This document shows positions 30,049 through 50,225 of a stretch of 50,225 nucleotides of DNA, in pieces. The stretch's first letter is position 1. Each line of letters opens with the position of its first letter. Made by a program: the position numbers and the translations under genes. Source of the stretch: Alphaproteobacteria bacterium (GTDB taxonomy: Bacteria > Pseudomonadota > Alphaproteobacteria > Rs-D84 > CACZYB01); NCBI GenBank assembly GCA_017938435.1, contig JAGBBO010000001.1:1-50225 (forward strand), given 5' to 3'. The notes beneath the pieces are model-generated. The model had not been told where the DNA came from. It was given only the letters and a program-made list of their open reading frames with translations, and did no database searches.

Positions 30049-31059
30049 TTATGAATCCTTTTTAATAAGATTTTCAAGTCCAAGATGTTTATATGCCTTT
30101 TCAGTTACAACTCTACCTCTTGGAGTTCGTTGTAAAAATCCAATTTGCAAAAGATATGGTTCAATAACATCTTCGATTGTATCACTTTCTTCGCTTAGCA
30201 ATGCAGATAAAGTTTCAATTCCGATTGGGCCACCAGCATAATTTTCAATAACTAATGTTAAATACCTTCTATCTAAATTATCTAAACCATATTCATCAAC
30301 AGAAAGTTTTTGAAGTGAAATTTTTGCTTCTTGTTCGTCAATTTCTGTTTTACCATCAACGACTGCAAAATCACGAACTCGTTTTAAAAGTCTGTTTGCA
30401 ACACGAGGTGTCCCACGAGAACGTTTTGCAATTTCATTTGCTCCACTATCAGAAAGAGAAATATTTAAAATATGCCCTGCTCGTTTTACAATATTTGCCA
30501 AATCATCATCAGTATAAAATTCAAATGCTAATGGAATACCGAATCTTTCACGAAGCGGTGTTGAAAGAAGTCCGGTTCTTGTTGTTGCACCAATCAAAGT
30601 GAATGGTGGAATATCAATACGAACTGAACGTGCCGCAGGCCCCTCTCCAATAATCAAATCAAGTTTAAAATCTTCCATCGCAGAATATAAAACCTCTTCA
30701 ACCGATGGCGAAAGTCTATGAATTTCATCAATAAATAAAACATCGTTTGGTTGAAGGTTTGTAAGTATTGCAGCCAAATCTCCGGTCTTTGTAATCATAG
30801 GTGCAGATGTTGCACGAAAACCAACACCAAGTTCTATTGCAATAATGTTTGCCAAAGTTGTTTTTCCAAGACCAGGGGGACCATAAAGCAAGCAATGATC
30901 AAGTGCGATTTTACGACTTTTCGCAGATTGAATAAAAACCTTTAGATTTTCCTTTATTCCACTCTGCCCAATAAAATCATCAATACAAAGTGGTCGGATA
31001 TTTTCATCACGACTAACATCTTCTATAATTTCTTTTCTATCTATAAGTCTTTCTTCCAT
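30049..31059 (-). CDS. ruvB: Holliday junction DNA helicase RuvB
   Basis: The product is 336 residues. [22 protein letters not shown], Walker A GPPGLGKT (60-67), Walker B DEIHRLSP (111-118), sensor region [19 protein letters not shown], and a C-terminal winged helix ([17 protein letters not shown]). It drives branch migration with RuvA. ruvC and ruvA, its usual upstream partners, are absent; a frameshifted small gene is directly upstream instead. Confidence 0.97.
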
Positions 31060-31615: not shown

Positions 31616-31647
31616 AAACTCCCCTTATTTATGGGGAGTTTTTTTAT
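31616..31647 (+). terminator. Bidirectional Rho-independent terminator
   Basis: AAACTCCCC (31616-31624) pairs with GGGGAGTTT (31633-31641), then a T run to 31645. On the other strand the stem runs into CGATTTTT, so it can end the lipoprotein transcript too. Confidence 0.9.
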
Positions 31648-31769
31648 TTTTTAGCACCGTAGGTTAGTGTGAGGTGGGTGGAGTGCGGATCTATGTATTC
31701 TAATATACCTACGCTCTCTAATCCTTCTTCTCCTTTATAATATTCTACCTCTCTTATCTTGCCTTGACC
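31639..31769. repeat. 131-bp exact duplicate of 50095-50225 (lipoprotein 3' end), copy 1
   Basis: Every base from the terminator T run through 31769 matches 50095-50225. Identity may go on beyond the window edge in the second copy. The first copy encodes the last 41 residues of the lipoprotein at 31644-33227. Confidence 0.97.
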
Positions 31770-33227
31770 TTCTTCTCCCGATATCAACACATCCCCTTTA
31801 AAATCTTCTCCTTCTTTAAACTTCCAATCCGAACTTTCTTCTCCTCCTTTTATTTCTATTTCATACCAATCTTTTATCTTCGCTTTAAACTCTTTCTCTT
31901 CCCCTAATCTATACTCTATTTCTCCGGATTTACTCTTACTGCTTTTATTCAATTCCTTTATATTCGCTATTACTTTTCCTTTAAATACTACATCTTCTCT
32001 TATATCCTTTTCTTCTATCTTTTTACTTGCAAAACCTCCTATAAATGGTATTGCATAATCTTTTATCAATTCCCCTTCTTCATTGACTACTTCTTCTTCC
32101 CAATACCCATAGTCTGCATAACTTAACCCTACTCCTTTACCTAAAAAGTGTAGTTTTAAATAGGCTTCTTTTATCTCTTCTACTTTTATATCTTCTGATA
32201 ATTTTACTTCATTTACATCTGTGGATATTTCATTTAATGGATCTGATAGTTTTAATAATTCTAATGATCTATAATTCACTATTTCATTCCCAAACTTATA
32301 TGTAAATTTAATTCCATCATATTCTAAATTACTGAACTTTCCATTCTCTATTTCTTTTAATTCATCTAAACTATATTCTTCATCTTTGTATATAAATAAT
32401 GGTTGAGCATTTTCATCGTCTTCTCCTAAATATTCCAGCTCTTTTAACAACTCCACTTTATTTTGTAATCTTTCAAAAAATTTACTACTTATCGGCGAAA
32501 TCTCTCTTTGCTTTCCATATAATTTATATGGTGTCATTTCTGATTTATATTCATAGATCGTTTCATTTTCTTTCTCTTCTTTCCCTATAAATTCATATTT
32601 ATCTAACAAATATTCTTTATAATTTTTAAAATATTTTTCGGCATCTTCTTTCGTTTCAAATTTATATGTGTATTTTTCGTTAAAATCTTCTATATCTTCT
32701 ACTTCATTTAAGTCTGAATACATTTGATTAAATAAATCTGATAAGTCTATTGATATGTTATAACCGTCCGATGTTGATATTATTTCAATAGATTTTTGAG
32801 AAAGATTTTTACCTTCGAATGAGCCTTCTCTGGCTCCTAAACTTTCTAACATTATTCCATTGTAAATTGGATATTCAGTTGGGTTTTGTGAATTGCTTTT
32901 TGATATTTTATTTGGCGTTGAATTTAGAATTGGTGTTTCTTCATCTGATGGAGTTTCTGTTGTTTCAATAGGTTCAGAATTTTCTTCTGTAGTTGGTGGA
33001 AGTTCGGAGGTTTCAGCCTCATCTTTTGCATCATCTTCTTCATCAATCGGTAAAAATATTTCTATACTCCCCGATGTCGGAAGTGTAAGTTCTTCGGATT
33101 CAGAAGAACCTTGTTTAACTGGAACATCAGTTGGCAAGATAACTGAAGCTATTTCAACAGAATGTCCATGACATGAACACAAAATAATTAACAAACTAAT
33201 AACTAAAATATTGTGTAGTTTTATCAT
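31644..33227 (-). CDS. Large surface lipoprotein, possibly TbpB-like beta-barrel
   Basis: The product is 527 residues. A lipoprotein signal ends LCSC (Cys19 most likely lipidated). Residues 25-115 are acidic, Ser/Thr/Pro/Glu-rich low complexity, a flexible stalk. The middle is Glu/Lys/Tyr-rich. The last 180 residues (YADYGYWEE, IPFIGGFASKK, VVFKGKVIANIKE, GEIEYRLG, ending LTLTYGAKK) have alternating strands and Gly pairs like the C-terminal barrels of transferrin-binding-protein-like surface lipoproteins; this match is by eye and uncertain. The 3' 126 bp are identical to a second gene starting at 50100, so it belongs to a family sharing its C-terminus. Confidence 0.7.
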   Translation of the reverse strand: MIKLHNILVISLLIILCSCHGHSVEIASVILPTDVPVKQGSSESEELTLPTSGSIEIFLPIDEEDDAKDEAETSELPPTTEENSEPIETTETPSDEETPILNSTPNKISKSNSQNPTEYPIYNGIMLESLGAREGSFEGKNLSQKSIEIISTSDGYNISIDLSDLFNQMYSDLNEVEDIEDFNEKYTYKFETKEDAEKYFKNYKEYLLDKYEFIGKEEKENETIYEYKSEMTPYKLYGKQREISPISSKFFERLQNKVELLKELEYLGEDDENAQPLFIYKDEEYSLDELKEIENGKFSNLEYDGIKFTYKFGNEIVNYRSLELLKLSDPLNEISTDVNEVKLSEDIKVEEIKEAYLKLHFLGKGVGLSYADYGYWEEEVVNEEGELIKDYAIPFIGGFASKKIEEKDIREDVVFKGKVIANIKELNKSSKSKSGEIEYRLGEEKEFKAKIKDWYEIEIKGGEESSDWKFKEGEDFKGDVLISGEEGQGKIREVEYYKGEEGLESVGILEYIDPHSTHLTLTYGAKK

Positions 33228-33497: not shown

Positions 33498-34622
33498 TTA
33501 CTTTTTTATTTTTTCACCAATGTAAATGCCAAGATTTTTTGCAGTTTTTACAATAGGTGAAGAAAGATTTAAACCACGAGTTTCTTTTTTACATACATTT
33601 TTAAGTAATACCTTTGCTGGTTTACCATCCTTCATTCCAGCCATAACAGCAGTATGACCTTCGGCCATTAAATCAACAGCCAAAACACCAAGTTCTGCGG
33701 CAAGCATTCTGTCATATCCATTTGGTAGTCCACCTCTTTGAATATAACCAAGATTATCAGCACGCGCTTCTATACCTGCTTTATCCAAAGCCTTTGCAAT
33801 ATACTCAGCAACAGTATAGTCTGCATTTTTAGGAAGTGGTTTTCCCTTCTCCAAACCGGCACCTTCGGCAACAACAATTACTGCATAATCTCTTTTTTCA
33901 AGAGTTTTTAAAGATTTTACTTTCTTAATAACACCACTTAAAGTATATGGAATTTCTGGTGTTAAAATAACATCAGCACAAGATGCAACACCAGAGTGCA
34001 TTGCAAGATGCCCTGTGTTTCTTCCCATAACTTGTGTAACGATAGCACGACGATGTCCCTTGGCTGTCCAGAAAATACTATCCAAAGCATTTACGCACGC
34101 ATCAACAGAACTTGAAAATCCAATAGAAATTTCAGTCCCTGGTGTATCATTATCAATAGTTTTTGGAATACCAACAAATGGAATTTTTACCTTTTCACAC
34201 AAAAAGTTTAACATAAACATTGTGCCATCACCACCTGTTGCAATCATTCCATCTATATTCAATTCTTTTATGTGCTTCTTAAAGAATGGAAACATAACTT
34301 CAACCAATTCTTCATCACTTTTTACATCTTTAAATTTTTTAGTTTTAAGTTTACGGAAAGAACCTAAAAATGTTCCACCTTGACGAACATATTCAGAAAA
34401 TGAAAATGATGGTGTAAATGGAATTATATCTGCATCATCGCCATCAAATTTTATTTCATCAAGAAGTCCATTTAAGGCATTTTTAACGCCCATAACTTCC
34501 CAACCGTATTTATTCATTGCATATTGAGAAACAGCCTTTATCGCCATATTAAGCCCAGGACAATCACCACCACCAGTTAATATTGCGATGCGTTTTTTCT
34601 TATTTGATTTTTTTCTAAGCAT
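33498..34622 (-). CDS. pfkA: 6-phosphofructokinase, mixed ATP/PPi-type active site
   Basis: The product is 374 residues. It phosphorylates fructose 6-phosphate. Residues 11-25 give the nucleotide loop ILTGGGDCPGLN. GGDGT (130-134) has Gly133 where PPi enzymes have Asp (ATP-type), while PKTIDND (153-159) has Lys154 where ATP enzymes have Gly (PPi-type); catalytic Asp157 is present. Such Gly/Lys mixtures occur in group III enzymes, some using ATP. MGRNTGHLA and GYIQRGG are standard substrate motifs. GAGGGA precedes the start. Transcribed alone, divergent from map. The donor must be tested. Confidence 0.93.
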   Translation of the reverse strand: MLRKKSNKKKRIAILTGGGDCPGLNMAIKAVSQYAMNKYGWEVMGVKNALNGLLDEIKFDGDDADIIPFTPSFSFSEYVRQGGTFLGSFRKLKTKKFKDVKSDEELVEVMFPFFKKHIKELNIDGMIATGGDGTMFMLNFLCEKVKIPFVGIPKTIDNDTPGTEISIGFSSSVDACVNALDSIFWTAKGHRRAIVTQVMGRNTGHLAMHSGVASCADVILTPEIPYTLSGVIKKVKSLKTLEKRDYAVIVVAEGAGLEKGKPLPKNADYTVAEYIAKALDKAGIEARADNLGYIQRGGLPNGYDRMLAAELGVLAVDLMAEGHTAVMAGMKDGKPAKVLLKNVCKKETRGLNLSSPIVKTAKNLGIYIGEKIKK

Positions 34623-34653
34623 TTTAATTTTCCCTCTTATTAAACCTTTGGTA

Positions 34654-34682
34654 AGTATAACATTTAAAAAGGTGCAAGTAAA
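34654..34682 (-). promoter_or_regulatory. Putative pfkA promoter
   Basis: On the minus strand, -35 TTTACT (34677-34682), 17 bp, -10 TATACT (34654-34659), about 32 nt before pfkA. Confidence 0.5.
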
Positions 34683-34695
34683 GGTATTTTTACTC

Positions 34696-34724
34696 TTTAT
34701 TTTTTAATTTAATGTGTTTATAAT
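34696..34724 (+). promoter_or_regulatory. Putative promoter of the map operon
   Basis: A perfect -10 TATAAT (34719-34724) with a weak -35 (TTTATT, 34696-34701) at 17 bp, 35 nt before the map ATG. Confidence 0.5.
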
Positions 34725-34759
34725 AGCCACATAGTTTGATAAAAATAAAAGGGATAATT

Positions 34760-35545
34760 ATGATTTATAGTAAAGAAGATTTTGAAGGCTTAAGAGTTGC
34801 TGGTCGTGCTGCGGCTGAAACTTTGGATTTTATAACTGATTATGTTTGTGCTGGAATTTCAACTTATGATTTAGATAAACTTGTTGCTGAACATACAAAA
34901 AAACAAGGTGGAATTTGTGCTCCACTTAATTATTGCGGATATCCAAAACATTGTTGTATTTCAGTTAATGATGTTATTTGTCATGGTATTCCAAATAAAA
35001 ATGAACATCTTAATGATGGAGATATTGTAAATATTGATGTTACAACAATTATTGATGGATATTATGGAGATACAAGTAGAACTTACCTTGTTGGAAATGT
35101 TTCGGATAGAGCAAAAGAACTTGTCGATGTTACATACGAATCTATGATGAAAGCAATTTCAATTTGTCGTCCAGGACAAAAACTTTCTGAAATAGGAAAA
35201 GTTATTCAAGAAATGGGAGAAGCTCATGGTTTTTCTATCGTTCGTGATTTTTGTGGTCACGGAACTGGAAAAATTTTCCACGATGCTCCTAATGTTTTAC
35301 ATTATTATGAACCAAAAGATGATAAAGTTATTTTAAAGGAAGGTATGGTCTTTACTATTGAACCTATGATAAACACAGGAACATGGGAAATGTATATTGA
35401 AGAAAATGATTGGACCGCAAGAACTGCTGATGGTGGACTTTCTGCACAATTTGAACATACTCTTGGTATTACAAAAAATGGTGTAGAAATATTTACAAAA
35501 TCACATATGGGTTATACAAAACCTCCTTATAATAAAAAGAAATGA
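34760..35545 (+). CDS. map: Methionine aminopeptidase, type I
   Basis: The product is 261 residues from the ATG at 34760 (AAAAGGGAT upstream); an in-frame TTG eight codons earlier is unlikely. It removes N-terminal Met. Metal ligands visible are Asp93, Asp104, His167 (CGHGTG), Glu201 (IEPM) and Glu232 (FEHT); His75 (CHGIP) is the usual substrate-site His. First gene of a four-gene plus-strand operon ending in ppaC. Confidence 0.96.
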   Translation: MIYSKEDFEGLRVAGRAAAETLDFITDYVCAGISTYDLDKLVAEHTKKQGGICAPLNYCGYPKHCCISVNDVICHGIPNKNEHLNDGDIVNIDVTTIIDGYYGDTSRTYLVGNVSDRAKELVDVTYESMMKAISICRPGQKLSEIGKVIQEMGEAHGFSIVRDFCGHGTGKIFHDAPNVLHYYEPKDDKVILKEGMVFTIEPMINTGTWEMYIEENDWTARTADGGLSAQFEHTLGITKNGVEIFTKSHMGYTKPPYNKKK

Positions 35546-35554
35546 GGTGATATT

Positions 35555-36034
35555 ATGAATTCAAAATTTAATTTTACAAAAGAAGAGCAAAAAGTATATG
35601 ATGATCTTGTTTCATTGTTAACTGAAGCTATAGAACCTGAGATTGAAAAGGAAGAAAAAAGAAGACTTGAGCAAGAAAGACAAGAAAAAATAAAACGAGA
35701 AATTCAAAGACAAAAATATCTTGAATCATTGACTCCTATTTCATTAAATGAGTTTATAAGACGGTTGAAAATCGTTGCAGAAAAATATAGAAAGTTTATT
35801 GAATTTAGGAAAAATGACAATGTTTTATTTTGTTCTTTGAATATAAACTTTCCAAACATCATTAGACAGGCACAAATGACTGATAATGGTTTGGCTCTTG
35901 CTGAATTGATAGATAAGGTTGAAAAAACTATGGATGATATGGAAGTTATCAAAAATATGGTTGAAATGAATAACGAAGTTATTCACAAAAAGATTGAGGA
36001 AATAAAAAAACAAAAATCAATACAAGAAAGGTAA
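35555..36034 (+). CDS. Hypothetical coiled-coil protein
   Basis: The product is 159 residues. GAGGTGATATT precedes the ATG. Residues 25-60 are a highly charged helix (EIEKEEKRRLEQERQEKIKR), then a more globular part (LNEFIRRLKIVAEKYRKFIEF, LNINFPNIIRQ), then a second helix (ELIDKVEKTMDDMEVIKNMVEMNNEV). No signal peptide. No family recognised. It lies 9 nt after map and 2 nt before the next coiled-coil gene, so the two are likely partners. Confidence 0.65.
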   Translation: MNSKFNFTKEEQKVYDDLVSLLTEAIEPEIEKEEKRRLEQERQEKIKREIQRQKYLESLTPISLNEFIRRLKIVAEKYRKFIEFRKNDNVLFCSLNINFPNIIRQAQMTDNGLALAELIDKVEKTMDDMEVIKNMVEMNNEVIHKKIEEIKKQKSIQER

Positions 36035-36036
36035 TT

Positions 36037-36537: not shown

Positions 36538-36555
36538 AAACGAAAGGAAATATAA

Positions 36556-38123: not shown

Positions 38124-38600
38124 ATGAAAAATAATGACTATCTTAATTATAACAATATGCTTGATAAAGCCCTACTTTCCGTTGTAAAAAGTGCGTTGAC
38201 ACAGGCTTCGACAGATGGGCTTTTGGATGGACATTATTTTTACCTTACATTTAAAACTAATGCTTGGGGAGTTGTGGTGCCAGAGTTTTTGAAAAAGCAA
38301 TATCCTGAAACTTTGACAATTATTATACAACATGAATATTCGAATCTTTCTGTTTCGGAAAAAGAATTTGGCGTAACACTTTCATTCAATAATCATAATT
38401 ATCATATAATTGTTCCGTTTACTTCTTTGATTGCATTCTCTGATCCAGAAGTAAACTTTTCACTTTCATTCAATCCAACTGATGTAATTCCTGAAGAAGA
38501 GGATGAACCGGAACTTTCATATTCAGATGATAACAGCAATATTATTTCTATGTCGGATTTTATGAAGAAAAATTCGCCAAATGACGATGATGTTGCATAG
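38124..38600 (+). CDS. sspB: ClpXP adaptor SspB, alphaproteobacterial type
   Basis: The product is 158 residues. The core GHYFYLTFKTNAWGVVVPEFLKKQYPETLTIIIQHEYSNLSVSEKEFGVTLSF and IIVPFTSLIAFSDPEVNFSLSF fits the alphaproteobacterial SspB fold. An acidic linker follows, then IISMSDFMKKN, which corresponds to the short C-terminal ClpX-docking peptide. It delivers ssrA-tagged proteins to ClpXP. The 3' end overlaps the convergent exchanger gene by 41 bp. Confidence 0.85.
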   Translation: MKNNDYLNYNNMLDKALLSVVKSALTQASTDGLLDGHYFYLTFKTNAWGVVVPEFLKKQYPETLTIIIQHEYSNLSVSEKEFGVTLSFNNHNYHIIVPFTSLIAFSDPEVNFSLSFNPTDVIPEEEDEPELSYSDDNSNIISMSDFMKKNSPNDDDVA

Positions 38601-39699
38601 TATCATTTGGAATTGTTTGAAAATTATCAATTTCAAGTCCTACATACACTAAAAATAAAATATATGTAAGAAGTAAAATAAAACTTCGAAATATCCATTT
38701 CGACTTTCCAATAATAAATGTTGCAACAACAAGTATAACTAAAAATATGCTTATATTTTTAAGATTATTTATACTTTCAACCGAATTATACCCAAGAAAT
38801 AAATCACTTTTATAAATTATATTGTAAATTAAAATTGGAAAACCAATACAAAAACTTATATTAAAAATATTTGAACCAAAAGCATTAGTAATTGCATCAT
38901 CAAATTCCCCTACCTTTGCATCTTTTATCGAAAGAATTGTATCCGGAACAGAGGTTGCAAGTGCAGTAACAGTCATTGCCACAAAATAACTTGGGATATG
39001 CAAAATATCACTTATTGCATAACTACTGGAAACAAGGATATCACACATAAAATAAAAAACTATTATACTTAAAGACAAAACAATAAATGAATTTAGTGTA
39101 TTTTGTTTCTGAGATTTTGAAAAAAATATTCTAAATAAATCAACATCTTTTAACGCTTTTATAATATGCTTTGAATTTTCCAACAAAAAATCATAATGAA
39201 TTTTTTCGGTGTTTTTAATTTTTTTAGGATAATTAAAAATTATAATCAAATACAAAATATAAAATGCAATCAATATAAGTGAATTCACAATGTTTATAAC
39301 ACCACTAGAAAGAACTAACATAAGATAAACTTGTGTCATTATTAAAAATATACTATCGCGGATAAGAATAACTTTATCAAACTTTAATTTATTTAATGTT
39401 TTAAATAAAAAACATGAAAATATAACGAAAAAAGGAATCATTGTTATATTATAAACGACACTACCTGTTGTATTACTTATTCCAAACATTGCACCGTCGT
39501 TTTTTGAATATTCAAATATTGCAATAAATGAAGTCATAAATTCAGGAAATGAACTTCCTATAGCATTGATTGTCGCACCCCTTGTCCCATTAGGCATATG
39601 TCGCCCTAAAAATCGAGAAGCCTGTTGAAACGAATCACAAACTTTCCATATTACATAAGAACTGAAAAATAATAAAAAAATGTGCCGTAGTATTTCCAT
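38560..39699 (-). CDS. Sodium/calcium exchanger-family (CaCA) cation antiporter
   Basis: The product is 379 residues with about ten membrane helices. The two inverted alpha repeats are GATINAIGSSFPEFMTSF (41-58, Glu53) and AMTVTALATSVPDTILSIKDAKVGEFDDAITNAFGSNIFN (241-280, Asp253 in place of Glu), the usual ion-binding signatures. A charged cytosolic loop (about 158-200) links the halves. It probably exchanges Ca2+, or another cation, for Na+ or H+ at the inner membrane. Its Shine-Dalgarno sequence lies in an inverted repeat. Confidence 0.87.
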   Translation of the reverse strand: MEILRHIFLLFFSSYVIWKVCDSFQQASRFLGRHMPNGTRGATINAIGSSFPEFMTSFIAIFEYSKNDGAMFGISNTTGSVVYNITMIPFFVIFSCFLFKTLNKLKFDKVILIRDSIFLIMTQVYLMLVLSSGVINIVNSLILIAFYILYLIIIFNYPKKIKNTEKIHYDFLLENSKHIIKALKDVDLFRIFFSKSQKQNTLNSFIVLSLSIIVFYFMCDILVSSSYAISDILHIPSYFVAMTVTALATSVPDTILSIKDAKVGEFDDAITNAFGSNIFNISFCIGFPILIYNIIYKSDLFLGYNSVESINNLKNISIFLVILVVATFIIGKSKWIFRSFILLLTYILFLVYVGLEIDNFQTIPNDTMQHHRHLANFSS

Positions 39700-39750
39700 A
39701 ACTCCTCCATATATAGGGAGTTATTATACATCTTGGCACAAAATTTGCAA
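39700..39750 (-). promoter_or_regulatory. Exchanger promoter with an inverted repeat covering the ribosome-binding site
   Basis: On the minus strand, -35 TTGCAA (39745-39750), 16 bp, -10 TATAAT (39723-39728). AACTCC (39717-39722) and GGAGTT (39700-39705) are inverted; the second arm holds the Shine-Dalgarno GGAGGAG, right before the ATG. As DNA it could be an operator; in readthrough RNA from ugd it could hide the ribosome-binding site. Confidence 0.5.
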
Positions 39751-39764
39751 TATGAATTTATACC

Positions 39765-41057
39765 CTATATTCCACTAAATTCGAAACCAAGTTTTAAAGC
39801 TTCATCTTTATCCAAAATATGACGAAGGTCAATTATTTTTGGTGTTCGCATAAGTTGTTTTACCTTTGCCAAATCCAACTCTTTAAAATCATTCCATTCG
39901 GTTAAAATTGCCAAACAATCTGTACCATCAATCGCATTATACATATCGTTTGCATATTCAACATCAATCCCAAGCAATTGTTTTGCACTTACCATTGCTT
40001 TTGGATCAAAAACTCTTAGCTTTGCTCCATTTTCGATTAAATGTTTAATTATTTCAATAGCTGGACTTTCACGACAATCGTCAGTTCCATCCTTGAAAGC
40101 TAATCCAAGAACAGCTATCTTTGCATTTTCAATATTCTTAACACTTTCCAAAATACGGTTGGCCATTTGTTTTTTTCTGTTTGCATTTCCAGCAATAACA
40201 GTTTCTATTAAATCAAAGTTCATTCCAATACTTCTTGCCATATATGCAAGAGCCATTGTATCTTTTGGGAAACAAGATCCTCCAAAACCTGGACCTGGAT
40301 TTAAAAATTTATTTCCAATACGACTATCAAGTCCCATTCCTTTTGCAACTTCAAATACATCGGCTCCTGTTTTTTCACAAAAATCAGCCATTTCATTTAT
40401 ATAATGTATTTTCATTGCAAGGAAAGAATTAGAAGCATACTTTATAACCTCACTTGAACGACGTTTTACAAACAACATCTGTGTTTTACCTTCAAATGGT
40501 TTGTAAAGTTCCTTTATAACATTACGGGCTTTTTCTGTATTTGCACCAACAACAATTCTGTCTGGATTAAAGAAATCGTGAACTGCAAAACCTTCACGTA
40601 AAAATTCAGGCAAAGATACTACATCAAAATCAGCATTTGGATTTTTCTTTCTAATCAAATTTTCGACATCATCGCCAGTTCCAACAGGCACAGTAGATTT
40701 TGTGGCAATAACTGTGTATCCCTGCAAATACTCTGCTAATTCAGTAGCAGCAGCATTAATATACTTCATATCTGCTTCGTGTGTCACAGGATGAGGAGGT
40801 GTGCCAACGGCAATAATCACCAAATCAGCATTTTCAACACCTTCCTTCATAGAAGTTGTAAATTTGATATGACCATTTGCAATATTTTTGTGAAAAAGGT
40901 CTTCTAACCCATCTTCGTAAAGAGTTATTTTACCAGCCTTTAAAGCATCAATTTTAGATTGTTCGCGGTCAATACAAATAACATCATTTCCAAGTTCAGC
41001 CAAACCGACACCTGTTGGTAAACCTACATAACCTGTTCCTATAATACCTACTTTCAT
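39765..41057 (-). CDS. ugd: UDP-glucose 6-dehydrogenase
   Basis: The product is 430 residues. It oxidises UDP-glucose to UDP-glucuronate with NAD+. GIIGTGYVGLPTG (4-16) binds NAD; VGTPP, STVPVGT and Lys206/Asn210 follow; GFGGSCFPKD (258-267) holds catalytic Cys262. The last gene of the surface-glycan operon; it supplies a nucleotide sugar, probably for the polymer made by the genes upstream. A UDP-N-acetyl-sugar dehydrogenase is a less likely alternative. Confidence 0.92.
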   Translation of the reverse strand: MKVGIIGTGYVGLPTGVGLAELGNDVICIDREQSKIDALKAGKITLYEDGLEDLFHKNIANGHIKFTTSMKEGVENADLVIIAVGTPPHPVTHEADMKYINAAATELAEYLQGYTVIATKSTVPVGTGDDVENLIRKKNPNADFDVVSLPEFLREGFAVHDFFNPDRIVVGANTEKARNVIKELYKPFEGKTQMLFVKRRSSEVIKYASNSFLAMKIHYINEMADFCEKTGADVFEVAKGMGLDSRIGNKFLNPGPGFGGSCFPKDTMALAYMARSIGMNFDLIETVIAGNANRKKQMANRILESVKNIENAKIAVLGLAFKDGTDDCRESPAIEIIKHLIENGAKLRVFDPKAMVSAKQLLGIDVEYANDMYNAIDGTDCLAILTEWNDFKELDLAKVKQLMRTPKIIDLRHILDKDEALKLGFEFSGI

Positions 41058-41070
41058 TTTTTAACCTTTC

Positions 41071-44000
41071 TTATTTAATTTCTTTAAATTCCTTTGTATC
41101 TAAATCATATATTTTAGATGGTAGTTTAATTAGAGAACCAAAATATTCATTTATTTTTTCATCACTCCATTTTGAAATTCCTGTCGCTGAAGTAAATGTC
41201 ATTTCTCCAAAATATAACTTTCCATCATTCATACGATAAAAATCTACACGAACATGATTAAAACCTTTTGAAAGTTTTTCTGCAAGTTTAATCATTTCAT
41301 CCAAATTGCTAGGTCTATCAATATTCTTTTCATCTAATGGATGACTTGTAGTAAAGCTCTGTTTTTTCCAATTTCTATCATAAAAGGCAACTTTTACACC
41401 ACTCAAATTACGCTCTGATAAAAATTCAATATAATAAACTTTACCATCAAAACACCAAAATTTATAATCATATAAATCATCAGTTCCAACATTTTCAATG
41501 TATTTTTCAATGATAATTTTTGGTTCTATATCACGATAATGAAGTTCATAACCTGCACGATAAGCAAAGTTTTCTCTCATCCATTTATCGATCTTATTTT
41601 TTGTATCAGCAAGGTTAAGTTGTGATTTATCTTTTACTATAATATTATAACCAGAACCGTGATTACACTTTATAACAAACTTATTTGGAAGTTTATCAAA
41701 ATCTATTTCATCAAAATTATCATAAACACCCAAAAGTGGTATCAAATATTCCTCACCAATTTTTTCTTTTATCCAATCACGCACCAAATACTTATCAGCA
41801 AGACGTGTTTTTATTGGTGTTGAATCGTAAAGTTTCAACCATTGTATCTTTTCGTTAAAATTTTTAGGGTTATCAAGAGCTAGCCTATGACCAGTTTTTG
41901 ACCTATACCATACTTCAAGTGCTCTTTTAAAATCAACGACAGAAAGTAAACGCTCGTTGATAACCCCAAAATTATTATTCATATCCGAACGAACAGAACT
42001 TAAAGTTTTTTCCATAGACTTAAGCGCTATATTCTGCTTATCAATAGAGTCTGTCTTCACGCTCGACAAACCTTCTTCCGTACTCGCCCTTAGTCTTTTT
42101 TCGACTTCCTTTAGGTCTGTCTTCACGCTCGACAAACCTTCTTCCGTACTCGCCCTTAGTCTTTTTTCGACTTCCTTTAGGTCTGTCTTCACGCTCGACT
42201 GAAACGCGTGAAGTTGGAAAAGTAGATTTTTATATTTATTTGTGTGCTGAAATTTTATACCAAAAATCCAAACTCTGTATGTTGCACCAATATGTTCATA
42301 AGCAAATAAATATTTTTTTCTATTTATTTTTTTACTTATAGTTTTTGATAAAGAAGCAACCATCATTTTATTTCTATAAAAATCCATAAGAAAACCATAA
42401 CGATCAACAAATATTTTTCTATGTTTATTTTTTAATAACTTTACTTGTTCTGTCGAAAAACTTGCATGACGACGATGAAAAACCAATAAATTATTAATTA
42501 GAACTGTTTTATATCCTTTCATAAGAGCTTTTATAACCAAATCATCCTCTTCATAATATCCTTTTTCCCATATCTCGTCAAAATAATTTAACTCTTTTGC
42601 CACAGTATTTCTTATACAAAAACAAAATCCCTCAGGAGTAAATGAAGGATACTTTTCTTTAAATTTTAATCTTCTATTTAAATAATTAATATCTAAATTT
42701 TCATTTATTGAAAATAATCCCGAATTCGAAGCTATAGGTGAAGCAATAGCTATTTTTTTATCATATTTAAAACAATCTATAATTTTTCTATCAAAAAATT
42801 CTGGAACTTTTGTATCACTATTTAACAGACATATAATATCTGCATTAGACATCTTCATTGCCTTATTGCAGGTTTGCCCAAACCCTAAATTCAAAGAATT
42901 TCTAATTAATTTTATAAAGGGATACTTTTTAACAAATTTACACAACCAATCATAAGTTTCTTTATTTGAAAAATCATCAATCACTATAATTTCTGTATTA
43001 CTTTTTAATTTAGAATTTACAATACTGTTTAAACATATTTTTACATATTCCAATGCATTATAAACTGGAACTATTATAGATAAAGTTAAATTGTTATTAT
43101 CTTCAACTCTTTTTTCTGAATAAATGTTAGATTTATGATAATTATTCAACATATTTAATAAATTTTTTTCATAAACAGAAATAGCATTATTATCATTATA
43201 TGCCTTTCTTGCTGCATTTTCCATATCATATAATATTGATGGATTATCAATAATGTAAGTGATAATATTACTTAATTCATCAACATTATTTATATCAAAA
43301 ATAAATCCATTGTTTTTATTTATAAGATACTGAGCTCCTACTTTATTTGACATAATAACAGGTCTACCCATCATCATGGCTTCAATAGCTACACGAGATG
43401 TTGGCTCTAATCTAGAAGGAACAACTAAACATGAAATTTCTTCATAAAATTTCATCATTCTATCTAAATCAGTAATTTCATCTATAATTTTAATTAGATT
43501 GGATTCTTTTAAATTTTTGTATAAATTTTTATCATAATCCCTACCAACAACATAAAAATCTGCTTTTTTTCTATAATTTTCAGAAATATTTTTTATTGCT
43601 TCCAAAAAAAGATCTTGACCTTTTCTTTTATTAACAGTCCCAATAACTGCAAAAGAAATCCTATCATGAGATATATGCACACCATGATAACAATCTTCTA
43701 ATCCATGTTTTATAACACATATATTTTTATTGTATTTTAAATATTCATCCCTAGATAAATTTGACATTGTATATATATTTGATGCCATAATCACAGATTG
43801 TAACATACATGGTCTATTTTTTAAAGTATCGGCGGGTTCTCTTATCCACCAAAATACTCTTCTTCCTGCTTTATTTAAAACTGTATATTGAATATGAGGA
43901 ATAAGCGTATTAACCACTATATTATAATATAACGAAGAATAAAAATATGTTTTAGTTATATTCCTTGTAATTATCACAGAACCAATTTTTTTAAATTCCT

Positions 44001-44340
44001 CTTTTAAATTACCATCTTTAAGAGATATTGTTAATATTTTATATCCATTTTTCTTATATAATTGAGCAGCTTTTAGTAAAGATAATGGCGCTCCTGTATA
44101 AGTTAATTCGTGAGAAATTAAACAAATAGTTTTCTTTGAAACATATTTATGTATAATATCGGAAATATACTTAACAAAAAAATTAACCTTAACTTTTTTT
44201 GTATATCTAAAAATATTAAAAAGGAAATAAGTATTATACCAGTCAGTTTTCTTCTTTTTAAAAATAGTTAAATTAAATACTTTATATTTTGAAACTCTGG
44301 TATCAGCCTCTACTATCTTAATTTTATTAAATAATTTCAT
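41071..44340 (-). CDS. Three-domain glycan assembly protein: GT4 + GT2 + TupA-like ATP-grasp
   Basis: The product is 1089 residues. Residues 70-400 are a GT4 glycosyltransferase (SHELTYTGAPLSLLK, GTVNKRKGQDLFLEAI, PSRLEPTSRVAIEAMMMGRPVI). Residues 418-640 are a GT2 (LSIIVPVYNALEYV, IIVIDDFSN, LLNSDT, YYEEDDLVIKA). Residues 712-800 are a helical linker with a perfect 22-residue repeat. Residues 800-1080 match TupA-like ATP-grasp ligases (NFNEKIQWLKL, FVIKCNHGSGYNI, YDYKFWCFDGKVYYIEF, VRVDFYRMNDGKLYFGEMTFT). It likely transfers two sugars and ligates an amino acid or similar group to the glycan. It overlaps the upstream gene by 14 nt. Confidence 0.85.
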   Translation of the reverse strand: MKLFNKIKIVEADTRVSKYKVFNLTIFKKKKTDWYNTYFLFNIFRYTKKVKVNFFVKYISDIIHKYVSKKTICLISHELTYTGAPLSLLKAAQLYKKNGYKILTISLKDGNLKEEFKKIGSVIITRNITKTYFYSSLYYNIVVNTLIPHIQYTVLNKAGRRVFWWIREPADTLKNRPCMLQSVIMASNIYTMSNLSRDEYLKYNKNICVIKHGLEDCYHGVHISHDRISFAVIGTVNKRKGQDLFLEAIKNISENYRKKADFYVVGRDYDKNLYKNLKESNLIKIIDEITDLDRMMKFYEEISCLVVPSRLEPTSRVAIEAMMMGRPVIMSNKVGAQYLINKNNGFIFDINNVDELSNIITYIIDNPSILYDMENAARKAYNDNNAISVYEKNLLNMLNNYHKSNIYSEKRVEDNNNLTLSIIVPVYNALEYVKICLNSIVNSKLKSNTEIIVIDDFSNKETYDWLCKFVKKYPFIKLIRNSLNLGFGQTCNKAMKMSNADIICLLNSDTKVPEFFDRKIIDCFKYDKKIAIASPIASNSGLFSINENLDINYLNRRLKFKEKYPSFTPEGFCFCIRNTVAKELNYFDEIWEKGYYEEDDLVIKALMKGYKTVLINNLLVFHRRHASFSTEQVKLLKNKHRKIFVDRYGFLMDFYRNKMMVASLSKTISKKINRKKYLFAYEHIGATYRVWIFGIKFQHTNKYKNLLFQLHAFQSSVKTDLKEVEKRLRASTEEGLSSVKTDLKEVEKRLRASTEEGLSSVKTDSIDKQNIALKSMEKTLSSVRSDMNNNFGVINERLLSVVDFKRALEVWYRSKTGHRLALDNPKNFNEKIQWLKLYDSTPIKTRLADKYLVRDWIKEKIGEEYLIPLLGVYDNFDEIDFDKLPNKFVIKCNHGSGYNIIVKDKSQLNLADTKNKIDKWMRENFAYRAGYELHYRDIEPKIIIEKYIENVGTDDLYDYKFWCFDGKVYYIEFLSERNLSGVKVAFYDRNWKKQSFTTSHPLDEKNIDRPSNLDEMIKLAEKLSKGFNHVRVDFYRMNDGKLYFGEMTFTSATGISKWSDEKINEYFGSLIKLPSKIYDLDTKEFKEIK
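42049..42199 (-). repeat. Perfect 66-bp tandem repeat inside the glycosyltransferase gene
   Basis: Units at 42053-42118 and 42119-42184 are identical, with 15 more matching bases (42185-42199) and four before. Each unit encodes 22 residues of a coiled-coil-like helix (SSVKTDLKEVEKRLRASTEE...). GC is 31 of 66 (47%), much above the flanking DNA. Confidence 0.97.
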
Positions 44341-46663
44341 TTAAAACTCCTAACTTGTCATTTCTTGTCATTTTTTCATTAAAAAAAGGAAGCGTTCTTA
44401 AATATAAAATAAAATCTTTATAACTCTCAAATTTACTATCAGATGCTTTAGTTTTATCTCCATTTAGTAATATTTCTCCCATCACAGTATTATTACAATA
44501 CACACCGACCTTATCTTTTGGCGTCAAATAACTATGTAAAATACAAACTTCCTTATGAAAAGCTTCGTCAAAAATATTTTTTTGAAATTTATTAAAACAA
44601 GCATTTTTTGTTACATAAAATAATAATGATGAAGACAAATCTACATGAGAAAAACTAGTATGGATAACTCCATGACCTAAATCTTTATCTATAATTATCA
44701 GTGGAACTTTCTTATCTGCAATACTTCCATATTTTCTATATTCTTCGACAGAAACTGGCTGCATAACACGATGATCTCCAGTAATTATTAATACACCATT
44801 TTCAAAAAAATTAATACCATCTAATTTTAATATAAAATCATTTAAAACATTCTCTAGATAATTTAATGTACTATCAAAACTTCTAAATTTATTTCTAGGA
44901 TCAATAAATGGTGGATGCGTAGAGATTGTACTAATGACAAAAAGAAATGGATTATTTTTTTTATCCATAATTTCTTGATATACATTTGATAAAAGGTCAA
45001 AATCAGATACACCATTAAACAAAAAACGTTTTTTTCCATTATAAAAAACATCATTAGAATCACTTACTTGATAAAATCCAGCATTTTCAACTACATTTTT
45101 TAAATTTGATGAAAGATCAACACCTGTAAAATAAAAACTTTTATATCCACTATCTTTTAATAAATTAGGCAAAGAATTTATATAATAACCTTTATATGAA
45201 AAACTCCCTAATTTACTATAATCACTAACAATTGGAAATCCTGTTATAATATTAAAAACCCCTCCTGCTGTAAAAAAACTATTACTAACATAATTATCAT
45301 AAACAATCCCTCTCTGAGATATTTTATCCAACAAAGGCATTTTATCTTCAATTCCATTAAAGCTTTTAATTTTATATGAAGAAAGAGACTCTGCAATAAT
45401 AATAATAATATTTTTCTTAGTACCTCTACCAATAACACAATCTTGTTCTAATTTAAAATTTTTTCTTAAATCTAAAACAAAATTCTTTGTACATTTCTTC
45501 ATCTGATTATTTTTAAAATTTGCTTGAAAAACATTATAAAATTCACTATCATGAACATTTGTTTTGCGTGGTAATAATAAACAAAATATAAACAAAAAGA
45601 AAACTAATAAAATATACCTTATATCCCTTTTATTCTTAAATTTGTTCGGCAAATAAAAAGGTATAAACATTATCAATACACTTACCTTTCCTATATCTGT
45701 AGATAAATAAGATTTTAACATTTGCCAAGAAGCATCAAAAGTAACATCACCTTCAAAAATTTCCGAAAATATAAATCTAGATGACAAATTATACCAAACA
45801 ATATAGTCTATCAACACAATAGATAAAATAATAAAAATCAAAAACTTAACACTTTTTTGAAATCTCAATAATAATAAAAATGACAAAAATATCAAAATAG
45901 GTAATTCATAATAAAATACAGCAAATAATTCCTCGAAACCAATTTTACCATACCTTAAAAACATTCGATCATAAAAATTCAAATATTTAATAAAAAGAAG
46001 ACCAATAACCAAAACATAAAAATATAACATTTTATATTTTGCATCATAAGTACATAAATACATAACTAGAGCAAATATACAATAAAGCAAAAATCCATTT
46101 AATTCTATTCCTTTAGATTCTTTAAAATCATCATTAACATCAAATACAATATACGGATCATCCTGAGAAGAAAATACTTTTATCCAGCCATCTTCTACCA
46201 TAATTGAATCTACTTTATTCTTTTTTGATTTATCTATATTTAAATCTAAATTTGAATTTCCCAAAAGTTTTAAATTATTTATTAAAACATTATCACATTT
46301 AGGACTAAAATCTAACCTAATTTTTTTTATTTTTCCATGAAATGGAATTTTTATTAAAAACTTTTCATTCTCCTTAGATTGATCAACTTTTATTACTGCT
46401 TTAGATGTAAATCTATTTATATTGTCATCAATAAAAAAAACTTCAAAATTTTGAAAATCTTTACTATTAACAGAAAATTCCAGATATGCATAACTATAAA
46501 ATAATTTCATAAATCCAAAACAAAATATAATTATTGCTAAACATCTAAAAAATACATTTAAATTAAAAATTTTAATTTTATATTTATTCTGCAACAATCT
46601 TTTGAAAATACGACTCTTTATATTCTCAAATTTATCTTTCAAAATTTTAAAATTTTTTTTCAT
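44327..46663 (-). CDS. LTA synthase/alkaline-phosphatase-superfamily membrane phosphotransferase
   Basis: The product is 778 residues from the ATG at 46663, which overlaps the rfbB stop as ATGA; a GTG four codons upstream is less likely. After one N-terminal helix and a 130-residue extracytoplasmic insertion come several membrane helices (about 188-365). The C-terminal enzymatic domain has Glu425 (IIIAESLSSY), candidate nucleophile Thr465 (NSFFTAGG), STHPPF with His583 and GDHR (629-632), the LtaS/sulfatase metal-site pattern. It probably moves phosphoglycerol or phosphoethanolamine from a lipid to the surface glycan. In a rhamnose operon it is expected to modify that polymer. Confidence 0.85.
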   Translation of the reverse strand: MKKNFKILKDKFENIKSRIFKRLLQNKYKIKIFNLNVFFRCLAIIIFCFGFMKLFYSYAYLEFSVNSKDFQNFEVFFIDDNINRFTSKAVIKVDQSKENEKFLIKIPFHGKIKKIRLDFSPKCDNVLINNLKLLGNSNLDLNIDKSKKNKVDSIMVEDGWIKVFSSQDDPYIVFDVNDDFKESKGIELNGFLLYCIFALVMYLCTYDAKYKMLYFYVLVIGLLFIKYLNFYDRMFLRYGKIGFEELFAVFYYELPILIFLSFLLLLRFQKSVKFLIFIILSIVLIDYIVWYNLSSRFIFSEIFEGDVTFDASWQMLKSYLSTDIGKVSVLIMFIPFYLPNKFKNKRDIRYILLVFFLFIFCLLLPRKTNVHDSEFYNVFQANFKNNQMKKCTKNFVLDLRKNFKLEQDCVIGRGTKKNIIIIIAESLSSYKIKSFNGIEDKMPLLDKISQRGIVYDNYVSNSFFTAGGVFNIITGFPIVSDYSKLGSFSYKGYYINSLPNLLKDSGYKSFYFTGVDLSSNLKNVVENAGFYQVSDSNDVFYNGKKRFLFNGVSDFDLLSNVYQEIMDKKNNPFLFVISTISTHPPFIDPRNKFRSFDSTLNYLENVLNDFILKLDGINFFENGVLIITGDHRVMQPVSVEEYRKYGSIADKKVPLIIIDKDLGHGVIHTSFSHVDLSSSLLFYVTKNACFNKFQKNIFDEAFHKEVCILHSYLTPKDKVGVYCNNTVMGEILLNGDKTKASDSKFESYKDFILYLRTLPFFNEKMTRNDKLGVLNEII

Positions 46664-47667
46664 ATCAAATACCACTCAACAGTTTTTATAATTCCTGTAT
46701 CAAATGTTTCATCTGCATGCCAACCAAGTTCTGTTTCTAACTTTGTTGCATCTATTGCATAACGAAGATCATGACCTGCTCTATCTTGAACAAAAGTAAT
46801 CAAATCAGAATATTTTCCCTCTTTCCTTGGACATTTTTCATCTAAAATTTTACAGATAGTTTCAACAATAGTAATATTATTTCGTTCGTTTCGTCCACCA
46901 ATATTGTATGTTTCACCTGAAACTCCTTTGTGGAAAATTAAATCAATAGCCTTACAATGATCAAGAACATATAACCAATCGCGTATATTTTTACCATTAC
47001 CATACACTGGAATATTTTCACCAGCCAAACACTTTCTTATAATTGTAGGAATAAGTTTTTCACTATGCTGTTTTGGTCCATAATTATTCGAACAATTTGA
47101 TGTTGTTGTATTCATTCCAAATGTATGATGATATGCACGAACAATGAAATCAGAACTTGCTTTTGAAGCAGAATATGGCGAATTAGGAGCATAATGAGTT
47201 TTTTCAGTAAACATTTCATTATCAAAATCAAGTGTTCCATATACTTCATCTGTTGAAATATGATGGAAACGACAATCTTCATATCCGCTTTTTACCTTAT
47301 TTGGAGCTTCCATCCAATGATGATATGCGACATCAATCAATGTAAAAGTTCCTTCTATATTCGTTTGAATAAAAGCGAATGGATTCTTAATTGAATTATC
47401 AACATGAGATTCCGCAGCAAAATGTATTACACCTCGAATATCATATTTTTTAAACAATTCTTCAATAAGATTTCTATCACAAATATCACCCTTTACAAAA
47501 GTGTAATTATTCATACTTTCACATTCTTGAACATTTTCAAGATTACCTGCATAAGTAAGTTTATCTAAATTTATAATATGATATTCAGGATATTTTTTAC
47601 AAAAATAAGGCACAAAATTTGAACCAATAAATCCTGCACCGCCAGTTACTAAAATTGTTTTAGACAT
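46660..47667 (-). CDS. rfbB: dTDP-glucose 4,6-dehydratase
   Basis: The product is 335 residues from the ATG at 47667 (AAGGATTAG before it); the frame opens 21 nt earlier but without ribosome-binding site. Rossmann GGAGFIGS (9-16), catalytic Thr139-Asp140-Glu141 and Tyr165/Lys169 (YSASK). It converts dTDP-glucose to the 4-keto-6-deoxy sugar. It overlaps rfbD by 19 nt and is coupled to the LTA-synthase-like gene by ATGA. Confidence 0.97.
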   Translation of the reverse strand: MSKTILVTGGAGFIGSNFVPYFCKKYPEYHIINLDKLTYAGNLENVQECESMNNYTFVKGDICDRNLIEELFKKYDIRGVIHFAAESHVDNSIKNPFAFIQTNIEGTFTLIDVAYHHWMEAPNKVKSGYEDCRFHHISTDEVYGTLDFDNEMFTEKTHYAPNSPYSASKASSDFIVRAYHHTFGMNTTTSNCSNNYGPKQHSEKLIPTIIRKCLAGENIPVYGNGKNIRDWLYVLDHCKAIDLIFHKGVSGETYNIGGRNERNNITIVETICKILDEKCPRKEGKYSDLITFVQDRAGHDLRYAIDATKLETELGWHADETFDTGIIKTVEWYLI

Positions 47668-48470
47668 TTTTCTAATCCTTTCTTCCAATGTGATATTTCT
47701 ATTCCAAAAACTTTTTTTATTTTTGATTTATCAAGAACACTATAAAATGGTCTAGTTGCCTTTGTTGGATACGCAGAAGATGGAACCGGATTAACCCTAC
47801 ATTTTAATTTTGACTGTTCCATAATTTCAGTTGAAAAATCATACCACGAACAAACGCCTTCATTTGTAAAATGATAAATTCCACTATTTTCTTTTTTAAG
47901 TTGAGGAATTATTTGTTTAATTGCTTCAGCTAAATCTCCAGCATAAGTTGGAGTACCAATTTGATCACAAACAACATTTATACTTTCTTTTGTTTCTCCA
48001 AGCATACGCATAGTTTTTACAAAATTTTTACCATAAGGAGAATAAAGCCAAGCCGTTCTTATAATCACATAGATATTTGCATTTTCAATAACAGCTTTTT
48101 CTCCTGCAAGTTTTGTTTTACCATAAACAGAAATAGGATTTGTTTTATCCTCAGGAGTATATGGTTTACAACCCATTCCATCAAAAACATAATCTGTTGA
48201 AATGTGAATAAGTTTAGCACCAGTTTTTGCAAGGTTTTTAGGACCATCAACATTTACTTTTGTTGCAAGTTCTATATTATCTTCTGCATTATCAACAGCT
48301 GTATATGCTGCACAATTAACAATAGTATCAACATTATGAGACTTTACAAATTCCATAACTGCATTTTCATCTGTAATATCAAGTTCATTTGCATCAGTAA
48401 AAATTGCATCAGGCAAAAGTTTTGATAATTCTGTTCCTAATTGTCCATTACCACCTGTTACTAAAATCAT
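47649..48470 (-). CDS. rfbD: dTDP-4-dehydrorhamnose reductase
   Basis: The product is 273 residues. GGNGQLGTEL is the NADPH loop; ISTDYVFDG and SVYGKTKLAGE (Tyr/Lys) the active site. It makes dTDP-L-rhamnose in the last step. Two nt separate it from rfbC; rfbB overlaps its end. Confidence 0.96.
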   Translation of the reverse strand: MILVTGGNGQLGTELSKLLPDAIFTDANELDITDENAVMEFVKSHNVDTIVNCAAYTAVDNAEDNIELATKVNVDGPKNLAKTGAKLIHISTDYVFDGMGCKPYTPEDKTNPISVYGKTKLAGEKAVIENANIYVIIRTAWLYSPYGKNFVKTMRMLGETKESINVVCDQIGTPTYAGDLAEAIKQIIPQLKKENSGIYHFTNEGVCSWYDFSTEIMEQSKLKCRVNPVPSSAYPTKATRPFYSVLDKSKIKKVFGIEISHWKKGLEKCLKQF

Positions 48471-48472
48471 TT

Positions 48473-49030
48473 TTATTCCTTTTCATACATATCAAGAATA
48501 TCTTTAAGTTTATGTGCAAGATTATCTTTTTCAGAAGTAATAACTTTATCTAAAGGTATTTTCCAATCAATTCCAATTTCTGGGTCATCATACCGAATTC
48601 CAAATTCAGAATCCTTACAGTATAAATTATCACATTTATAAGCAAAAACAGCCGTATCACTTAATACTGAAAATCCATGCAAAAAACCACGAGGTATAAA
48701 AAGTTGTCTTTTGTTTTCAGCAGAAAGTTCAACTGCAACATGTTTTCCAAATGTTGGAGAATTTCTTCTTACATCGACAGCAACATCAAGAACTTTTCCT
48801 TCTAATACACGAACTAATTTTGCTTGAGCATGTTCACCAAGTTGACAATGAAGCCCTCTAATTACTCCAAAAGATGATTTTGATTGATTATCTTGAACAA
48901 ATTTATTTGTAATCCCATTTTTTACAAATTCATCTTCATTATAACTTTCAAAAAAGTAACCTCTAGCATCCTCAAATACACGAGGCTCTACTATTATAAC
49001 ACCATCAATATCTGTTTTAATAAAGTTCAT
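48473..49030 (-). CDS. rfbC: dTDP-4-dehydrorhamnose 3,5-epimerase
   Basis: The product is 185 residues. FEDARGYFFESYNEDEF, SKSSFGVIRGLHCQ with the catalytic His, DVAVDVRRNSPTFGKHV and IPRGFLHGFSVLSDTAVFAYKC are diagnostic. It overlaps the rfbA end by 14 nt. Confidence 0.96.
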   Translation of the reverse strand: MNFIKTDIDGVIIVEPRVFEDARGYFFESYNEDEFVKNGITNKFVQDNQSKSSFGVIRGLHCQLGEHAQAKLVRVLEGKVLDVAVDVRRNSPTFGKHVAVELSAENKRQLFIPRGFLHGFSVLSDTAVFAYKCDNLYCKDSEFGIRYDDPEIGIDWKIPLDKVITSEKDNLAHKLKDILDMYEKE

Positions 49031-49904
49031 GTTTCTCCCTATATACTTTCATCAAATAATATTTATATGTTCCTGATTTTAATTCATCTATTAATGCAAG
49101 CATCTGTTTATCATCAATAAAGCCACGACGATATGCAATTTCCTCGACACAAGCAATTTTTAAAGCCTGACGCTTTTCAATAATTTGAACAAATTGCCCA
49201 GCATCCATAAGGCTATCCGGAGTTCCAGCATCCAACCAAGCATTACCACGACGCATTGGAACAACAGACATTCTTTTTTCATCCAAATAAAGATTGTTCA
49301 AATCTGTAATTTCCAACTCTCCACGAGCTGATGGTTTCAAACTTTTTGCTTTTGCCACAACATCCCCTGGATAAAAATAAAGTCCAACAGACGCATAATT
49401 TGATTTTGGCTTTGATGGTTTTTCTTCAATAGAAAGAACATTAAAATCCTTATCAAATTCAACAACGCCAAAACGTTCAGGATCAGAAACATGATATGCA
49501 AATATCGTTGCTTTTTTACCCTTATTTTTTACAACTTCATCACGGAAAGAGTGGAATTGCTCTCCCATATAAAATATATTATCCCCAAGGATTAGGCAAA
49601 CATCATCGCCATCAATAAAATCTGCACCCAAAATAAATGCCTCTGCAATACCATTTGGTTTATCTTGAATTTTATATTCAATATTTAAACCTAACCTTGA
49701 ACCATCACCAAATAAATTTTTAATATTTGGAGTATCCTTTGGTGTTGAAATAATTAAAATATCTTTTATTCCAAATAACATCAAAGTTGATAATGGATAA
49801 TAAATCATTGGCTTATCATAAACAGGAAGTAACTGCTTTGACATAGTTTTAGTCAAAGGATATAACCTTGTTCCACTTCCACCAGCAAGTAAAATTCCTT
49901 TCAT
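49017..49904 (-). CDS. rfbA: Glucose-1-phosphate thymidylyltransferase
   Basis: The product is 295 residues, usual length. KGILLAGGSGTRLYPLTKTMSKQLLPVYDKP is the nucleotide loop; LGDNIFYMG the metal site; the C-terminal YRRGFID and GTYKYYLM follow. It makes dTDP-glucose from dTTP and glucose 1-phosphate. It is the first gene of the seven-gene operon; TTAC-free leader with GAGGTAAAG before the ATG. Confidence 0.97.
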   Translation of the reverse strand: MKGILLAGGSGTRLYPLTKTMSKQLLPVYDKPMIYYPLSTLMLFGIKDILIISTPKDTPNIKNLFGDGSRLGLNIEYKIQDKPNGIAEAFILGADFIDGDDVCLILGDNIFYMGEQFHSFRDEVVKNKGKKATIFAYHVSDPERFGVVEFDKDFNVLSIEEKPSKPKSNYASVGLYFYPGDVVAKAKSLKPSARGELEITDLNNLYLDEKRMSVVPMRRGNAWLDAGTPDSLMDAGQFVQIIEKRQALKIACVEEIAYRRGFIDDKQMLALIDELKSGTYKYYLMKVYREKHELY

Positions 49905-49982: not shown

Positions 49983-50099
49983 AAAAAAGACCGTTTATTT
50001 TAACACTTTAACAAAAGAGGATATAAACAAAATAACTATTTGTTTTTACAAACAAATCCTCTTTTAGAAAAATGCTGTAAATAAAAACGGTCGTTTTTT
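49983..50099 (-). terminator. Long nested inverted repeat downstream of the second lipoprotein gene
   Basis: Three stems are nested: GACCGTTT/AAACGGTC (49989-49996 with 50085-50092) flanked by A6 and T6; AAAAGAGGAT/ATCCTCTTTT (50013-50022 with 50056-50065); and ATTTGTTT/AAACAAAT (50038-50045 with 50050-50057, sharing two bases with the second). On the minus strand the outer stem runs into GGTCTTTTTT, a terminator. The size and layering are more than a terminator needs, so it may also be a structured RNA. Confidence 0.6.
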
Positions 50100-50225
50100 T
50101 TATTTTTTAGCACCGTAGGTTAGTGTGAGGTGGGTGGAGTGCGGATCTATGTATTCTAATATACCTACGCTCTCTAATCCTTCTTCTCCTTTATAATATT
50201 CTACCTCTCTTATCTTGCCTTGACC
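50095..50225. repeat. 131-bp exact duplicate of 31639-31769, copy 2
   Basis: Identical base for base to 31639-31769 up to the window edge; divergence is only seen on the left side, inside the T run. Confidence 0.97.
50100..50225 (-). CDS. Second surface lipoprotein gene, 3' end only
   Basis: Only the last 41 codons and TAA (50100-50102) are in the window. They are identical in DNA to the end of the lipoprotein gene at 31644-33227 (ending DPHSTHLTLTYGAKK). It is therefore a family member or a recent duplicate; how far the identity runs cannot be seen. Same strand as the rfb operon, whose promoter follows 130 nt downstream. Confidence 0.8.
   Translation of the reverse strand, partial: GQGKIREVEYYKGEEGLESVGILEYIDPHSTHLTLTYGAKK

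Follow-up and report, generated by a model that had tools for sequence, protein, structure and literature searches.

The cargo proteins of the Slam/T11SS export route consist of a variable N-terminal effector part and a C-terminal eight-stranded barrel, which is thought to guide the cargo to Slam (PMC5449769; PMC12282271). This route is best studied in animal pathogens, e.g. Neisseria, and the results presented here place it in uncultured, reduced-genome alphaproteobacteria of the gut. Candidatus Enterousia belongs to the order Rs-D84, the members of which have reduced genomes (PMC12306168); the draft genome analysed here (G000) represents another family of the same order. Like the Slam-dependent surface lipoproteins (SLPs) TbpB, fHbp, NHBA and PmSLP, the lipoprotein studied here (SLP1) possesses a lipobox, a variable N-terminal part and the same C-terminal barrel fold, and genes of its family adjoin Slam genes, as is described for T11SS cargo (PMC5449769; PMC12282271). 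Unlike the known cargo proteins, SLP1 has no significant match in Pfam or NCBIfam, is not itself encoded beside Slam and occurs in gut alphaproteobacteria with reduced genomes. In vls-type gene conversion, too, the surface lipoprotein (vlsE of Borrelia) combines a constant with a variable part.

The window, i.e. the whole stretch of DNA that was analysed (50,225 bp), is one entire contig (C3) of the draft genome, which comprises 1.107 Mb in 55 contigs. Two segments in direct orientation, 31639..31769 and 50095..50225 (both on the minus strand), are identical in 131 of 131 bases and lie 18,456 bp apart, as the original prediction had stated. The only other exact repeats of at least 40 bp within the window are tandem repeats, and chance is therefore excluded for this match. 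The first copy contains the 3' end of SLP1, the stop codon and an A/T run, and the second copy is cut by the contig end. It was also correctly predicted that the match starts in the T run of a terminator: the left 5-7 bp or so are a common T run (7 T in copy 1, 8 T in copy 2), so that the meaningful part of the match begins with the stop codon and ends where the contig ends. Its right border at position 50225 is set by the length of the contig, and 131 bp is thus the visible extent only. The genome was searched for more copies, as had been proposed with the prediction, and no third copy was found in the window or in the contigs of at least 3 kb of the draft genome. The rest of the second gene could be contained in the roughly 20 contigs below 3 kb. 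A 30-bp match is present at C37:120914.

SLP1 (31644..33227, minus strand) is an intact gene with an open frame for a lipoprotein of 527 amino acids. Its signal peptide and lipobox (residues 1-19, MIKLHNILVISLLIILCSC; 33171..33227, minus strand) end with the motif LCSC, and the lipobox cysteine, Cys19, is an invariant column in an alignment of 27 relatives. The gene is followed by a terminator hairpin at 31616..31641 (-14.9 kcal/mol, z -3.18), which is usable from the plus strand, too. Scans of SLP1 and eight relatives with Pfam and NCBIfam gave no convincing match (for SLP1 none up to E = 1), and a profile search of the PDB sequences gave none either; the identity of the family was reached through gene context and fold. 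Recognition by the existing barrel models (TbpBBD, lipoprotein C) is frequent among Slam-dependent SLPs but is no requirement. The C-terminal residues (approximately 170; 31647..32162, minus strand), presumed to be the part recognised by Slam, were modelled by AlphaFold2 as a barrel (pLDDT 88.2) with the fold of TbpB, fHbp, NHBA and PmSLP. Structure comparison matched this barrel with NHBA (Z 13.6), PmSLP (11.4), fHbp (11.3) and the C-lobe of TbpB (11.1), the top matches having Z scores of about 10-13.6. The best match, the C-terminal domain of NHBA of Neisseria (6cuj), had an rmsd of 2.5 over 137 residues, whereas only 16% of the sequence is identical. The N-terminal half was modelled with low confidence and is probably partly disordered. 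SLP1 fits the published layout of Slam/T11SS cargo. It is best read as a putative Slam-dependent SLP of a type that was missed here by Pfam and NCBIfam, and in this lineage the barrel presumably serves as the signal for Slam.

This assignment agrees with the distribution of the family. The C-terminal region of SLP1 was found in 21 of the 59 genomes of the order by a protein search of the relatives, and profile A1, built from this region, matched in 38 of them. The profile is a 24-row alignment; a 10-row alignment was used for one search across the genome contigs. In G000, profile A1 detected five places at E ≤ 1e-4 (SLP1, the fragment at copy 2 and three on contig C37) and a weak one. Slam (PF04575) is present in 34 of the 59 genomes and in none of 14 control genomes. 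In the relatives, an SLP domain lies within 3 kb of 29 of the 40 Slam genes (approximately 2% expected), and both co-occur across the 59 genomes (Fisher p 2e-8, a statistic that ignores shared ancestry). G000 itself has two Slam genes (C37:100667-101539 and C37:201229-202095). Both have an SLP domain match less than 2 kb away, which is weak in the case of the second gene. The linkage to Slam is thus seen at the level of the family; that SLP1 has no Slam gene next to it counts against the assignment, as does the missing recognition by Pfam and NCBIfam. Named matches came from uncultured Alphaproteobacteria and Candidatus Enterousia, and the Slam-linked lipoprotein families of the order of Enterousia escape the Pfam and NCBIfam models.

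At the contig end, an open-ended frame contains the last 41 codons and the stop codon of a probable second SLP gene (SLP2; 50100..50225, minus strand). The fragment is identical to residues 487-527 of SLP1 and matches the last 42 positions of profile A1. The original prediction of two lipoprotein genes therefore holds for SLP1, which is intact, while the second is seen as a C-terminal fragment with its lipobox out of view. Just 3' of the stop codon of SLP2 a long hairpin with a U run, probably a terminator, was identified (49983..50099, minus strand; -35.2 kcal/mol, z -4.96). Its stem continues into UUUUUU and it differs from the terminator after copy 1; owing to its long loop it was missed by a simple scan for terminators. 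That SLP2 has its own terminator-like hairpin supports a real gene end. The Rfam scan of the 30-50 kb region gave no match.

The repeat is real and marks a probable Slam-dependent surface lipoprotein whose 3' end has probably been copied recently. In the explanation considered likely here, SLP1 is a Slam-dependent lipoprotein of a small-genome gut alphaproteobacterium and consists of a lipobox signal peptide, an N-terminal half that would bind the ligand and a C-terminal barrel, by means of which Slam, a protein of the outer membrane, would flip SLP1 to the cell surface. The final 131 bp of the contig would belong to another SLP gene, located next to the glycan genes, and represent its 3' end. 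Both 3' ends would have become identical via segmental recombination (gene conversion) or duplication, one having been copied onto the other recently. SLP2 is presumably a full gene with an N-terminal half different from that of SLP1. Direct observations behind this explanation are, beside the lipobox, the fold, the Slam linkage of the family and the two Slam genes of G000, an identity of 3' ends at two loci of the relative G004 and a chimeric gene pair in the relative G052.

The position of copy 2 exactly at a contig end suggests a different origin, namely that the last 131 bp are SLP1 itself, attached by a misassembly or by a minority junction (50094 to 31639) arising from a duplication or circle with microhomology in the T run. 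Exact overlaps of 141 bp are found in five pairs of contig ends of G000, and 119 bp of one end recur at two others. Such exact overlaps are typically left by de Bruijn assembly at k values of 141 and 119, and MEGAHIT uses both values. Moreover, a C-terminal fragment in G048, which was considered as a cassette, is most likely the contig-end overlap (138 nt) of one gene, and this comparable match appears to be a graph overlap as well. The repeat of 131 bp fits neither value, however, and is therefore not a plain graph overlap; that it is unlike either of the overlaps at the other contig ends was also counted against the preferred explanation. The junction lies at most 8 bp from the stop codon and is followed by the terminator-like hairpin on the right strand, and the T run differs between the copies, so that an artefact is unlikely. 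A further argument against it comes from G004, which belongs to the same genus as G000 (RuvB approximately 98% identical) and has two distinct SLP loci. One of them, truncated by the end of its contig, is located beside ruvB, as is copy 1, and the second beside a glycosyltransferase gene and typA. Over the last 94 codons both loci encode the identical protein with 98.6% DNA identity and four synonymous differences. They use different stop codons, and it is right at the stop that they begin to diverge. The same 3' region is only approximately 71% identical on the DNA level between G004 and G000, and the SLP proteins of both genomes share 42-54% identity. The similarity of the 3' ends tracks the genome and not the locus, which indicates recent copying within each genome, and a real second gene at copy 2 is likely.

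A simple recent duplication of the entire SLP gene to the glycan locus, in which case the N-terminal halves would be identical too and no N-terminal part would have been exchanged, is a serious possibility, though short of probable. The match is perfect up to the last visible base and nothing in G000 marks its end, both copies are located on one contig, and the second copy of G004 is also identical on the protein level across its visible part. However, a full-length identical copy was not found among the contigs of at least 3 kb of the G000 assembly, and G052, the one relative in which both genes are complete, shares the barrel half only. Its neighbouring genes b and c are identical in 181 of 182 amino acids (99%) of the barrel halves and in 75 of 207 (36%) of the N-terminal halves, the closest relatives of which differ from each other. 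This pair is clearly a chimera. The predicted surface-lipoprotein family with exchangeable N-terminal parts is thus recognisable in the conserved C-terminal domain, the divergent N-terminal parts and the Slam-type nature of the SLPs, and in G052 an N-terminal half was exchanged on a common C-terminal half.

A homogenised C-terminus as a general rule, which had also been predicted, did not hold. The C-terminal domains of three other SLPs of G000 are only approximately 18-23% identical to that of SLP1. In three Enterousia-type pairs of relatives, orthology accounts for 317-371 sites and concerted evolution for no more than one, which rules out a general concerted evolution of SLP pairs. Long 3' identity was detected only in G000, G004 and G052 among the examined genomes with at least two SLP members. 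In G017, two SLP genes of opposite orientation have a 127-nt patch of 89% identity in common, whereas the remainder is approximately 55% alike (L179:5670-7980).

The same orthologous pattern (0-1 concerted sites per pair) bears on the most far-reaching part of the original prediction, the generation of antigenic or ligand variation by recombination. In a dedicated system of this kind the copies would recombine at a high rate and give rise to new surface variants, as described for vlsE. When close relatives are compared, SLPs have indeed diverged much faster than housekeeping genes, and both 3' and 5' tracts are common to paralogs. In contrast to Borrelia, a silent cassette array was looked for and not found in the contigs of at least 3 kb of G000, no recombinase was linked to the copies, and there is no sign of ongoing conversion. 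Such a system is therefore very improbable, and antigenic variation by the SLP copies is a guess.

Sharing at the 5' end was observed for other SLP genes. Three SLPs on C37, spread over approximately 130 kb, share an approximately 135-bp leader and the signal-peptide region, while their bodies are unrelated. A query with the leader of about 165 bp, which ends at the start codon, gave 98-99% identity and was matched over its whole length at these three genes and no others (L218:2260-2424, plus strand; L219 ~6297-6461 and L220 ~5645-5809, both minus strand). Within the leader, a T run comes after a 10-bp inverted repeat (GGTGGTTTAA/TTAAACCACC), so that a regulatory leader RNA is conceivable. Weaker 5' sharing among SLPs occurs in G005 and G048. 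Together with the shared 3' ends, this indicates that both ends of an SLP gene can be copied between paralogs; the sharing may reflect an exchange that is adaptive, or simply genes that were duplicated and have since diverged. One of the three genes (C37:194 kb) has a tmRNA gene on one side and a tRNA gene on the other (L220:2564-2901 and 5900-5986), surroundings that are typical of inserted DNA. In G005, three tandem SLP genes are 87-94% alike over the first 116 nt or so and have different bodies (L222, G005:C3:108000-121000).

Between both copies, cell-surface glycan genes are located (38560..49904, minus strand), which according to Pfam include UDP-sugar dehydrogenase, glycosyltransferase/TupA-like, sulfatase-fold and rmlBDCA-type genes. 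Copy 1 is flanked by ruvB (30049..31059, minus strand), which also adjoins an SLP copy in G004, and on the other side by a phosphofructokinase gene (PFK; 33498..34622, minus strand), which adjoins the KDO8P synthase gene in G002, G003 and G005. Copy 1 lies at a synteny breakpoint: the order in G000 is ruvB, a small ORF, SLP1, PFK, Map, ..., PPase and nusB, and in G001 ruvB and the small neighbouring ORF adjoin nusB. The PFK-Map-PPase block (33498-37479) has moved; it is found between ruvB and nusB here and at the KDO8P synthase gene in G002, G003 and G005. In a search performed without a positive control, rmlA was not found in G001-G005, so that the glycan genes look accessory. The breakpoint and the accessory glycan genes fit recombination at the SLP copies and do not prove it. 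A deletion or duplication of the glycan region via the copies, as had been proposed, was not seen.

More speculatively, the Slam-exported lipoproteins of this order might be three-part cassettes, in which recombination uses the shared 5' leader with the signal peptide and the shared 3' barrel as handles and swaps the ligand-binding middle, and the same repeats might rearrange the accessory glycan surroundings; this extension is rather doubtful. If barrel ends do act as handles, natural domain swaps such as that in G052 could be used to ask which part of an SLP is recognised by Slam; otherwise, SLP1 and SLP2 represent an ordinary duplicated surface gene. Of the tandem repeats in the window, a perfect 66-bp duplication (42049-42180) is located within the 1089-aa glycosyltransferase/TupA-like frame, and 51-bp repeats (17 aa) occupy the contig start (1-193).
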